Part shown: positions 1,461 to 24,156 of the stretch, one piece after another
Layout: each line of letters opens with the position of its first letter
How positions within the stretch are numbered: position 1 is the stretch's first letter
Source: Monosiga brevicollis MX1
Taxonomy: Eukaryota > Opisthokonta > Choanoflagellata > Craspedida > Salpingoecidae
Reading direction: 5' to 3'
DNA length: 64,000 bases
Assembly (NCBI RefSeq): GCF_000002865.3
Contig: NW_001865039.1
Location: 2,026,438 to 2,090,437, forward strand
Made by a program: the position numbers and the translations under genes
The notes under the pieces: generated by a model
Told to the model about the DNA's origin: nothing
The model's database searches: none
What the model saw: the letters and a program-made list of their open reading frames with translations, nothing else

Positions 1461-1470
1461 GATAAGGAAG

Positions 1471-1588
1471 GCCAACAGCACCATGTATTCCCATCTGGTC
1501 ACCCACGATAGTACTAGCATGGCCCAACATGGCTTAACTGCGGCGATCGGACGAGAGCCGGTGTATTCCATGTGGTATGACCGTTGGC
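1471..1588 (-). rRNA. 5S ribosomal RNA gene, complete
   Basis: The minus strand reads GCCAACGGTCATACCAC at its 5' end, then the conserved loop-B/C segment, GGCC...TTAGTACT, the box-C-like GGGTGACC and the closing CTGTTGGCC. The first and last bases pair (GCCAAC with GTTGGC) as in 5S helix I. Length is about 118 nt, normal for eukaryotic 5S. The internal pol III control region (box A, intermediate element, box C) lies at roughly 1485-1540. It is a lone copy here, about 240 bp from the ATG of the unidentified minus-strand gene and 550 bp upstream of ARMC6, so 5S genes may be dispersed in this genome rather than only in rDNA arrays. Confidence 0.95.
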
Positions 1589-17828: not shown

Positions 17829-17913
17829 GCCAACGGTCATACCACATGGAATACACCGGCTCTCGTCCGATCGCCGCAGTTAAGCCATGTTGGGCCATGC
17901 TAGTACTATCGTG
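17829..17913 (+). pseudogene. Truncated 5S rRNA copy (5' ~85 nt)
   Basis: The first ~85 nt are essentially identical to the complete 5S gene on the other strand at 1471-1588. Identity stops abruptly after CTAGTACTATCGTG, before box C and the 3' half of helix I, and T-rich DNA follows at once. Its 5' flank carries TTATAAA about 25 bp upstream of the 5S start. Without box C and the closing helix it should not make functional 5S, so I call it a broken copy. Its near-perfect identity suggests recent origin or gene conversion. Confidence 0.88.
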
Positions 17914-18296
17914 CCTTTTCTTTCTTTTTTTTTTTTTTGTGCCTTTCTCGCGTGAAAAGCGAGCCATCGCGGTCAAGCTGCCATCTGATTTTTTTTTTTT
18001 TAATTTTTTTTTTTGCAACGACATGCGTTTGTCAACAGTCACTGGTTGCTTTTTTTTGAAATACATTCAGTTCACGTGAGCGAGCGCGACAGAAAGAGTG
18101 TTCAGAGTGACAAGACGATCATGCAAACGATGATAAATAAGAGCTACAACTACCCTTCAAGGGGAGGATGAAGCATAGCGACGAGAAGAGAGTGGGAAGA
18201 TGAAACAAAGCGAAGAAGCACGCGCGGCTGCGCTGGTAAGATTCATCACTTAGTCTTGTGTTTGCTCCAGACTCCGTAGTATGAACATTGTCGCTC

Positions 18297-20803: not shown

Positions 20804-23448
20804 ATGTCGGCTGTGGCATTGGAGAGACTGCAAAGTCTGCCTGCCCCCGAGGCAGAGGCGGTTTGGTCTGTCATCGAGCTTGTGGCGCAGGGCAGTCTAA
20901 GTGCTGCTGAGCTCGAGGCTTGTAGCCAAGCGTTGGATGCGCTGGACATCAGCACCTGGCCCTCGCTGCTGACTCGCGTCGCCGATCAGTTGTTGGCGCT
21001 TGGCGAGCATCTGACTCTTCCTGCCCCCATTATCAGTCTCGAACGAGACAATGGCGGACCAGTTGACTTGTTTGATGTCACCACGGCTGCCGCCTTTGTC
21101 GTGACTGCCGGTGGGGCACGCGTAGTCTTACAAGGGGATCGGGCCCCAACCAACTCCAAAAGCGCACCGGGTCTGCTGGATGTGATGGATGCCCTCGGTG
21201 GCACGGCCGATGTCACCGCCACGCAAGCCCGTGCCATGGTCACTGAGTGTGGGTGTGCTTTTGTGCCCGCACCACATGCCTCTTCCATCCGTCGCGCCGT
21301 CGAGGCGATGCGCCAGCGGGGCACGCCCGCCGCCTTTCTCAGCCTGCTAGAACCACTGGTTCACCCAGCGCAGCCGGCCAGGTCAGCCCTCCTTCTGATG
21401 GTGGCCAATGGCCATCTTCCGCGCGTTGGCTTCTCCTTGGCCTGTTGATTCGCGCATCTGACATTGCATGCCACCTCTGCCCCTCCGTCTTGATTTGCAC
21501 CCTCGATTCCAGGATGCTGGTCGCCGTGGCGCAGCCCCAATTGGCATCAGTCCTTGCCGAAGCCCTAGCCACGCGACACGTCGAGCAGGCACTGGTTCTA
21601 TGCAACGCGGCAAGCCCCGGCCAACCGCTGACTCCCAGCGCGCCCGTATCTGGCTGCGAGCTGCGTAAGGGTCAAGTGCACCCAGTCACCATTACCCCCG
21701 CCGATTTGGGCTGGGACACCGCCGCAACCGCAGCTACCGCACCCACTGGCTTTGCAGCTTCCAGCTCAGCCCAGGCTTTGCGCACCATCTTAGCTCACGA
21801 GCCAAGCCCCTTGCGCGATGTCGTTGTTCTTCACGCGGCTCTTGGTCTTTATCTCACTGGCTGTGCAACAACATGGAGCGAGGGTCGGCAGCAAGCCGAA
21901 CAGCTGCTGGATTGTGGCCGAGCCGAGGCCACTGCCGATCGCTACGTGGCACTCTCAAAGCGCTACGGCGTACCGGTAACAGCCGGCGGACAACAACAAG
22001 GCGGCAACATTCTCGACGTCATTAGCGCTCAGCGTCGACGGGACGTTGAAGAGGCGAGCCGACAGACGCCCACAGCGCAGCTTGAAGCACAACTGTCCTC
22101 GGCCCCAGCCGTTCTCGACTTTGCTGTGCGCCTGGCTGCCGGAAGCCCCTTGGCTGTGATGGCAGAGATTAAGCGTGCGTCGCCTTCCAAGGGTAACATT
22201 GCCACCGACGTGGATGTGCCACGTCAAGCCCATGCCTATGCTAGCGCAGGCGCAGCTACCATCTCTGTCCTCACCGAGCCGACTTGGTTCAAGGTATGGA
22301 GGGGCGTCACCCCATGTGCTAGGCCCTCCCGTCAGACTTAGCCCACCCGTACATGACTAGGCTCCAAAGAACCTCTCAACCCAGCCCTTGTGGTACCACG
22401 GTTAGGGTACGCTCAAAGACATGCGGGCTGCTCGTGAAGCTGTGGAAGGAATGAGTGACCGCCCAGCGATCCTGCGCAAAGACTTTCTCGTTGATCGATA
22501 TCAGGTGGGGCTTGCTTGTGCGGTTGGCCATCGCCCGGGTTTGGTCTTTTTTTGGCATCTTCCGTGTTCATGCTCACGACCCACCACACAAAAGCCACTG
22601 GGTCTACCTCTTACTTCACCTTTGTATCCGCTTTGGGGTCACCAAGGTGCTAGAGGCGCGTGTCTATGGCGCTGACACGTGTTTGCTGATTGTGGCCATT
22701 TTGGATGATGCGACGCTCGGTGACCTCTTGGAATATGCGCGCTCCCTCGACATGGAGCCACTCGTGGAGGTGGCCACGCCTACCGAACTGCAGCGGGCAC
22801 TAGCCGTTGGAGCCAAGATCATTGGCATCAATAACCGCAACCTCAAGGATTTTACCGTAAACAACGACACGACGCGGGCAATCATGGAGACAATGGGCGG
22901 GGCGCGGCCCGAAGGGCTTTTATTTTGTGCTCTCAGCGGCATCAAAACCCGTGCCGATGCCCAGGCTTACCAAAGCGTGGGGTGTGATGCCGTGTTAGTT
23001 GGTGAATCACTCATGCGTGCCGCCTCTCCGGGAGCCCTCATCCAGTCATTGCGTGGCATGGCTACCACGGATCCCCTGGTGAAGATTTGTGGTTTGCGGG
23101 ATGTGGAAACCACTGATGCCACTCTTCGGCTGGGCGCCGACATGGTGGGCTTGGTGTTTGCACCGAAGAGCAAGCGGCTAGTTGACGTGGCCACGGCCCG
23201 GAGCATTGCTCAGCGCGTTACAAAATCCCGCCACAGCGCACACGTGGCTGCGCTGCGCCAGCAAATACTGGCAGCGCAGAGCGAAGAAAACGGGATCGCT
23301 GCCTGGCAAGCTCGTGCGCAGCTCTTGCGCGAGATGACGGCTCATCGGCCCCTGGTGGTCGGTGTATTTGCCAACCAGCCTCCGGCGGAGGTGAAGCGTA
23401 TCGCCGATGAGGTGGGCTGGCCTGGGATGGTGCACGCCCTTTTCACAT

Positions 23449-23492
<44 letters not shown>

Positions 23493-24156
23493 CATATAAA
23501 CCTTGCACTGGGCGCTTGCTCGCTCACCTTGATGACCAATGGTTGTGGCACTGCTGCCTGTAGGTTGGACTGGACGTGATCCAACTATCCGGCACGGAGG
23601 GCCTGGATGCGGCCAAAGATTATGCGGGCTATCTTGTGTGGAAGGCTGTGCATGTGGGAGCAGGCGACACGGGCGAGTCTTTGCTTTCGGCAGCAGAGGC
23701 GATACCATCTGCTTCTCGAGCCCATGCGTTACTACTCGACACTAAATCTCCGCTGGCGCTTGGCGGAACCGGTGGGTGTTCAAAACCATGCTTACCAAGC
23801 CAGGGCAGGCGTACTACCGCTTCGAGATAAGTATTCGAGGTCTTCTAAACTGTGTGTGTGCATGTGGGCAGGACAAGCGTTTGATTGGGACATTGCAGCC
23901 AACCTGGCCAAATTGGGCATGCCCTTCTTCCTAGCCGGTGGCCTGGATCCCGCCAATGTGGCGCAAGCCGTTACAAAGGTGCGGGTGTGTGGCCTGCTGC
24001 GCCTACAGCGCCGAGGACATGCTCACGTTGCGCTCTTGCATGCAGGTACAACCCATGGGATTGGATGTGAGCTCGGGGGTCGAGGCGGATGGTGTCAAGA
24101 GCCTTGACAAGATTGGTGCTTTTGTGCGGGCCGCCAAGTCTGCAGTGAAATATTGA
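20804..24156 (+). CDS. Trifunctional-type tryptophan biosynthesis fusion TrpD-TrpC-TrpF
   Basis: Seven exons: 20804-21381, 21513-22293, 22406-22504, 22647-23411, 23564-23771, 23872-23978 and 24046-24156, giving 882 aa. Residues ~1-345 follow anthranilate phosphoribosyltransferase ([34 protein letters not shown]). Residues ~358-625 are indole-3-glycerol-phosphate synthase ([33 protein letters not shown]). Residues ~630-880 are phosphoribosylanthranilate isomerase (KICGL with the catalytic Cys, [15 protein letters not shown] with the Asp, [18 protein letters not shown]). The IGPS and PRAI active-site residues look intact. In the TrpD part the PRPP/metal motifs are altered: GTGGD is DNGGP, KHGNR is LQGDR, and the acidic DE pair is not seen. 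Predicted cytosolic. The start is the first ATG after a short leader and fits the TrpD N-terminus. Confidence 0.93.
23455..23492 (+). repeat. (T)38 homopolymer in intron
   Basis: An uninterrupted run of about 38 T in intron 4 of the Trp fusion gene, about 40 bp after the 5' splice site. Confidence 0.95.

Follow-up and report, generated by a model that had tools for sequence, protein, structure and literature searches.

A TrpD-TrpC-TrpF fusion in Monosiga brevicollis with a degenerate TrpD domain and a probable truncation of the tryptophan pathway from its start

The fungal TrpG-TrpC-TrpF protein is a trifunctional enzyme that carries indole-3-glycerol phosphate synthase (IGPS, TrpC) and then phosphoribosylanthranilate isomerase (PRAI, TrpF) in one chain. 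The latter two also form a single chain in E. coli TrpC-TrpF (structure 1PII), and in four bacterial operons trpD, trpC and trpF follow one another as separate genes. Here, we describe a gene of the choanoflagellate Monosiga brevicollis MX1 that shows the bacterial order within one intron-split chain, i.e., a TrpD-TrpC-TrpF fusion. It is found on the + strand at 20804-24156 of a 64,000-nucleotide stretch of contig NW_001865039.1 (positions 2,026,438 to 2,090,437; this whole stretch is the window in what follows, and its coordinates are used unless a contig is named). The species assignment agrees with the PDZ domains of the assembly, which number 146 matches, compared to over 150 described for M. 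brevicollis (PMC8512817). One PDZ exon on contig 54 is identical over all 68 residues to PDB chain 6x1p, the mbDLG protein (mb for Monosiga brevicollis); of 30 PDZ pieces, 24 were compared with PDB chains, where 5 yielded only DLG4 and InaD-like chains at E-values up to 1e-20 and 21 yielded mbDLG at up to 1e-18. 1PII aligns over both the IGPS and the PRAI part of the fusion, and residues 84-342 in front of them belong to the same family as the anthranilate phosphoribosyltransferases (TrpD) of Mycobacterium tuberculosis (Mtb; 1ZVW) and Xanthomonas (4HKM). Compared to these TrpDs, the fused domain lacks the ligands of phosphoribosyl pyrophosphate (PRPP) and of the metal, is changed in 18 of 35 alignment columns that are invariant among TrpDs, and is joined to TrpC-TrpF. 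With regard to the fungal enzyme, TrpD stands in front where TrpG would be, as an earlier reading of the letters alone (the sequence-only reading) had already noted, and no TrpG was found in the M. brevicollis assembly.

The gene has seven exons. Their spliced coding sequence of 2649 nt (stop included) encodes 882 amino acids (aa), the frame is intact across all six junctions, and all six introns are of the GT...AG type. Pfam reports a Glycos_transf_3 domain (PF00591, aa 88-330, E 7.5e-33, far above the family cut-off), an IGPS domain (PF00218, aa 360-620, E 2e-83) and a PRAI domain (PF00697, aa 711-874, E 5.9e-39); an N-terminal Glycos_trans_3N domain is not reported for E-values up to 1. This is in accordance with the single, phase-consistent gene proposed before, for which both the domain order and the coordinates hold. 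Among the NCBIfam models, trpD is the best match of the TrpD part (TIGR01245, 115.6 bits, E 2.9e-33, below the cut-off of 199.05), and the nearest solved structure is the Xanthomonas TrpD (6.8e-30).

The same score bears on a different identity of the domain, namely a protein of the TrpD2/YbiB type with nucleic acid rather than PRPP as its ligand. The 115.6 bits of the trpD model compare to 34.6 bits for PRK07394, which we take to be the TrpD2-like model, i.e., the domain is closer to true TrpD. According to the passages of PMC9835598 that deal with TrpD2, these proteins have the TrpD fold without the PRPP motif, just as the fused domain, but YbiB is a DNA-binding protein. Given the scores and the fusion to TrpC-TrpF, a nucleic acid-binding role of this kind would be most improbable.

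To place the changes of the TrpD part, we used two alignments. The first is broad and comprises 16 TrpDs from Proteobacteria, Bacillota, Actinomycetota and Archaea, i.e., 6 of 80 TrpD loci, 9 plasmid-borne sequences and the Mtb fragment; the plasmid regions compared correspond to 16 of 95 plasmid match rows, some of which repeat a record. It holds the 35 invariant columns mentioned above, 17 of which are kept in the fusion. When each control is left out in turn, it breaks between 0 and 5 invariant columns, the worst case being an orphan Rhodococcus plasmid gene (5/40). The second alignment is larger and narrower, with 71 sequences (70 of the 80 loci, mostly Xanthomonadales and Burkholderiales, and the Mtb fragment; 10 loci with open reading frames (ORFs) over 376 aa were left out). 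Here, the fusion keeps 54 of the 157 columns that are conserved in at least 95% of the sequences. As for the Rhodococcus trpD itself (L137:2171-3217), no other trp genes are annotated within the 5.7 kb considered, and it carries Lys at the metal-binding Glu.

The losses appear to concentrate on the ligands. For Mtb TrpD, the passages available from PMC9835598 name G107, G110, N117, S119, T120, K135, N138-R139, S142-S143, G147 and R193 as ligands and D251 and E252 as metal ligands. We tabulated 18 positions in Mtb numbering, of which 13 are lost and five (G110, T120, R139, S143, R193) are kept. Within GTGGD, four of five residues are changed (G107 to R, T108 to D, G109 to N, D111 to G); in the other ligand regions we find N117 to D, S119 to T, K135 to L, H136 to Q, N138 to D, S142 to T and G147 to L, and at the metal site D251 to Q and E252 to P. 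That is, in place of the PRPP/Mg ligand set GTGGD, N117, S119, K135, D251 and E252, the fusion shows RDNGG, D91, T93, L109, Q230 and P231. The pairings at S142/S143 are less certain because the respective loop of the fusion holds a three-residue insertion. The three affected motifs are located as follows.

21044-21061, + strand: RDNGGP (aa 81-86), aligned to GTGGDG (Mtb 107-112)
21128-21142, + strand: LQGDR (aa 109-113), aligned to KHGNR (Mtb 135-139)
21613-21630, + strand: SPGQPL (aa 227-232), aligned to the metal-binding Asp251-Glu252 region of Mtb TrpD

The sequence-only reading had equated GTGGD with DNGGP. The alignment with the 16 TrpDs bears out the degeneracy and corrects the register, since GTGGD pairs with RDNGG (aa 81-85); for KHGNR, the same alignment returns the LQGDR that had been named. 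The acidic pair, reported as not visible, is paired with Gln230-Pro231 in the 16-sequence alignment and with Gly229-Gln230 in the 71-sequence alignment, and neither register offers an acid. None of the four alignments made restores GTGGD or the acidic pair, such that a shifted register with conserved PRPP or metal ligands was rejected. Furthermore, the GTGGD and KHGNR regions lie within exon 1 and the acidic-pair region within exon 2; therefore, the motifs cannot reside in an overlooked exon.

We also compared the ligands named in the review, together with GTGGD, with the remaining invariant columns: 2 of 11 are kept in the former versus 15 of 24 in the latter (Fisher test, p 0.027, which is exploratory since the groups were drawn after the losses had been seen). 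Such a selective loss would be the expected pattern if catalysis is gone and the fold is still held. Judged by these residues, the TrpD part very probably has no anthranilate phosphoribosyltransferase activity, which strengthens the earlier suggestion of an inactive domain: 18 lost invariant columns stand against 0 to 5 in the controls. With a recognisable fold that no longer provides canonical PRPP and Mg2+ binding, no phosphoribosylanthranilate would be made.

Alternatively, the domain might be active by an altered chemistry and bind PRPP through other residues. It is full-length and retains Arg170, Arg113, Gly84, Thr94 and Ser120, but both metal ligands, the diphosphate-holding lysine and asparagine and four of the five GTGGD residues are gone, and no anthranilate synthase that could supply the substrate was found (see below). 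We thus regard an active domain as highly improbable.

The rest of the pathway was searched for with profile models against a six-frame translation of the 39.5 Mb assembly (57 contigs), in which introns are ignored and masked stretches (Ns) are present. As a positive control, TrpA, HisG and chorismate synthase were picked up exon by exon. For TrpE, neither PF00425 nor PF04715 gives a match in the assembly. The TrpG model TIGR00566 (trpG_papA) gives a single place, which was read by eye as the glutaminase part of carbamoyl-phosphate synthase and rejected as TrpG. Upstream of the fusion, inspection by eye revealed no TrpG-like + strand ORF between the minus-strand neighbour and the gene, and this candidate position was dismissed as well. 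A second TrpD, which the sequence-only reading had considered elsewhere in the genome, did not emerge: TIGR01245 gives two places in the assembly, both within the fusion gene. PF00591 gives four places, two of them again the fusion and two on contig C52 that belong to one gene. On visual inspection of the reverse strand, the latter was taken for thymidine phosphorylase, given its motifs KHSTGG and GHTGGTLDKL that we take to be typical of this enzyme, and was rejected as TrpD. Kynureninase (TIGR01814) has no match in the assembly either, which is a weak negative because only 2 of 14 control genomes gave a match at the cut-off of this model.

At the other end of the pathway, TrpA was found in one gene region with TrpB. 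TrpB was recognised by reading, based on IELGLPFSDPLADG, HKINN and AETGAGQHG, which we assume to be the usual TrpB active-site motifs, and from its sequence the TrpA-TrpB synthase looks intact. Chorismate synthase is present as well (C45:477761-479089), although no chorismate-binding enzyme of the TrpE or PabB type was found.

For the IGPS part, the control alignment consists of 11 TrpCs (6 plasmid-borne and 5 of a set of 57; Aeromonas was left out due to its incomplete sequence). The fusion keeps 44 of 48 invariant columns, and single controls break 0 to 7. In the larger and narrower set of 57 out of 73 TrpC matches (16 of at least 330 aa were left out), 68 of the 97 columns conserved in at least 95% of the sequences are kept. 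For the PRAI part, 11 TrpFs were aligned, none of which stems from the 80 TrpD loci, where no TrpF match occurred; 23 of 24 invariant columns are kept, and single controls break 0 to 3. The IGPS part passes its NCBIfam cut-off (NF001377, 261.8 bits vs. 260), and the PRAI part, with its ~40 inserted aa, reaches 170.8 bits with its best model versus a cut-off of 215.

Most of the residues at issue are in place, as had been claimed, i.e., Glu411, Lys413, Lys478, Glu527 and Asn548 in IGPS and Cys634, Arg663 and Asp800 in PRAI, where we take Cys634 and Asp800 to be the catalytic Cys/Asp pair. The claim that all of them are kept needs correction due to one position in each enzyme. In IGPS, four residues of the active-site set (Mtb Glu57, Lys59, Lys119, Glu168, Glu219) are kept and the fifth is replaced:

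22932-22934, + strand: Leu582 (codon CTC, within ALSGI), replacing a Glu shared by all 11 IGPS of the alignment (ESG; Mtb Glu219)

In PRAI, Ser750 (codon TCC) forms QLSG; of the 11 aligned sequences, nine have QLHG and two have QFHG here. Neither codon can be reached from a Glu or His codon, respectively, by misreading one base. The PRAI insertion covers aa ~680-720 (~23226-23348, + strand) before the third strand and is absent from all 11 aligned TrpFs; it shows a weak, probably spurious likeness to WD40 proteins.

This degree of conservation raises the question of whether TrpC and TrpF are fully used behind a dead TrpD, such that the pathway starts at the TrpF step. The kept columns, the IGPS score above its cut-off and the listed residues of both enzymes favour such a scenario, which overlaps with the truncated pathway we propose below. 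Phosphoribosylanthranilate or 1-(o-carboxyphenylamino)-1-deoxyribulose 5-phosphate (CdRP) would then have to come from another phosphoribosyltransferase of loose specificity, from non-enzymatic condensation or from prey. On the other hand, no anthranilate source was found (neither TrpE nor TrpG nor kynureninase in the assembly), and phosphoribosylanthranilate is labile. Leu582 has to be considered, too: in the passages of PMC10591298 at hand, Ala mutants of the five conserved Mtb IGPS active-site residues, including Glu219, are without detectable activity, but Glu219Gln is more active than the wild type. Overall, full use of TrpC and TrpF appears rather unlikely but deserves consideration.

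A further use of TrpF is suggested by the histidine pathway. HisG (C42:680029-680701) and a HisH-HisF gene (C50:862500-865000) are present, and HisA was not detected in the assembly, i.e., all PF00977 places belong to HisF and the eukaryotic HisA model TIGR02129 has no match for E-values up to 1. TrpF is the only other sugar isomerase of the HisA kind that we encountered in the genome. It, and hence the fusion, may be kept for histidine synthesis by taking over or sharing the HisA step on N'-[(5'-phosphoribosyl)formimino]-5-aminoimidazole-4-carboxamide ribonucleotide (ProFAR). This would explain why TrpF is kept without a traceable substrate, and the sole invariant residue lost is the His of QLHG. 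Against it, TrpF retains its own Cys634 and Asp800, and at beta3 it is a normal PRAI (GVF.N) without a second phosphate-binding GGGIR, which are presumably features of PRAI and HisA, respectively. Moreover, HisA may escape detection in an intron-rich gene, given that the single exons of HisF reached no more than 26 to 29 bits. Because TrpF keeps its own Cys and Asp and HisA was perhaps missed, we consider this use very unlikely. If true, a member of the TrpF family would naturally do the job of HisA, the mirror image of bacterial PriA, with the tryptophan pathway above it dead; natural HisA activity is not known to us for any enzyme of this family.

Since anthranilate synthase is undetectable as well, the odd TrpD domain can be read as part of a truncated pathway. 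We consider it likely that the tryptophan pathway of M. brevicollis has been cut off at the top and that a TrpD pseudoenzyme precedes TrpC-TrpF in the fused chain. The pathway would have been lost from its start, i.e., anthranilate synthase would be gone and TrpD dead in place. The mostly preserved TrpC-TrpF chain, with one active-site substitution in each of its enzymes, may have reduced or no activity. The organism would probably be auxotrophic and take tryptophan or late precursors (indole, indole-glycerol phosphate) from its bacterial prey. The dead domain may have been retained because it forms the N-terminal third of the same chain, where a frameshift would also remove TrpC-TrpF; TrpD would therefore be protected against stops, though not against amino acid changes. 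In addition, it perhaps still aids folding or dimerisation.

Several observations weigh against this reading. The TrpD domain shows neither a stop nor a frameshift over its full length, and Arg170 (Mtb R193, which binds anthranilate) is retained along with the four other residues given above. The IGPS and PRAI parts show more conservation than an unused gene would call for, and are no worse than single controls. The absences come from one assembly with masked stretches and an intron-blind six-frame search, and are no proof of loss. Finally, two publications point in another direction. In the conservation gradient of a 2015 gene-loss study (PMC4339202), TRP2, i.e., TrpE, is called weakly conserved, not absent, in the passages available, and the excerpts of a 2025 paper (PMC11988736) describe choanoflagellates as 'primarily prototrophic', where these excerpts name neither tryptophan nor Monosiga.

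Choanoflagellates are the sister group of animals, which are unable to synthesise tryptophan. For choanoflagellates, the 2015 study, which used M. brevicollis and S. rosetta, found conservation to increase from TRP2 over TRP3 to TRP5 and proposes that precursors are obtained from ingested microbes (PMC4339202, in part). This gradient is an independent finding in favour of the truncated pathway. Its main text does not contain the terms 'trp4' or 'anthranilate', and the passages concerned describe neither a fusion nor a dead active site. Trp gene fusions were surveyed in a 2014 dinotom paper, the main text of which lacks the word 'choanoflagellate' as far as available (PMC3942023). The multi-domain Trp proteins of Euglena, brought up in the sequence-only reading, served as a first lead; the genome studied here is that of a choanoflagellate. 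According to excerpts of PMC7971027, the tryptophan enzymes in S. rosetta came up as candidates for transfer and failed a filter. Among the matches listed for the open-licence literature, no title or abstract start gives an account of such a fusion or of a dead TrpD in a choanoflagellate. What appears to be new here is thus the second pathway step and its form, a putatively dead TrpD fused ahead of TrpC-TrpF. With a probably dead domain joined to better-kept later enzymes and the first enzyme not found, the pathway is apparently caught mid-loss from its start. The idea of a supply by prey becomes directly testable, and orthologues assigned to the early and middle steps (TRP genes) in choanoflagellates do not imply a working pathway.

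The exons of the fusion gene are distributed as follows.

20804-21381, + strand: exon 1, aa 1-193 with the last codon split (phase 2, next bases GTCAGC); N-terminal portion of TrpD plus the first half of its alpha/beta domain, including both degenerate sites (GTGGD, KHGNR)
21513-22293, + strand: exon 2, aa 193-453; the other half of the TrpD alpha/beta domain, then the beginning of IGPS
22406-22504, + strand: exon 3, aa 454-486; IGPS, with Lys478 (Mtb Lys119)
22647-23411, + strand: exon 4, aa 487-741; remaining IGPS (Glu527, Asn548), start of PRAI (Cys634, Arg663) and the PRAI insertion of ~40 aa
23564-23771, + strand: exon 5; PRAI, with Ser750 (QLSG) and Asp800
23872-23978, + strand: exon 6; PRAI, end of GGTG and LAGGL
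24046-24156, + strand: exon 7; PRAI C-terminus (GLDVSSGVE) and stop

Upstream, the gene is flanked by a minus-strand ORF without Pfam match, which starts at ~20376 if the ATG there is its start, and downstream by a protein with DnaJ and DnaJ-X domains (Pfam); given these neighbours, there is no trp cluster. Viral contigs were scanned twice by pattern for proteins related to the fusion, with 4 and 13 matches, none of which is a relative. Elsewhere in the window, two 5S rRNA matches occur at 1470-1588 (- strand) and 17829-17975 (+ strand); the latter, with 62 bits and 147 bases compared to 120 model positions, may be a degenerate or interrupted copy. GC content at third codon positions (GC3) reaches 0.67 over the first 70 codons of the fusion gene, compared to 0.61 to 0.62 for the TrpD alpha/beta domain, IGPS and PRAI, with an intron GC content of 0.54.

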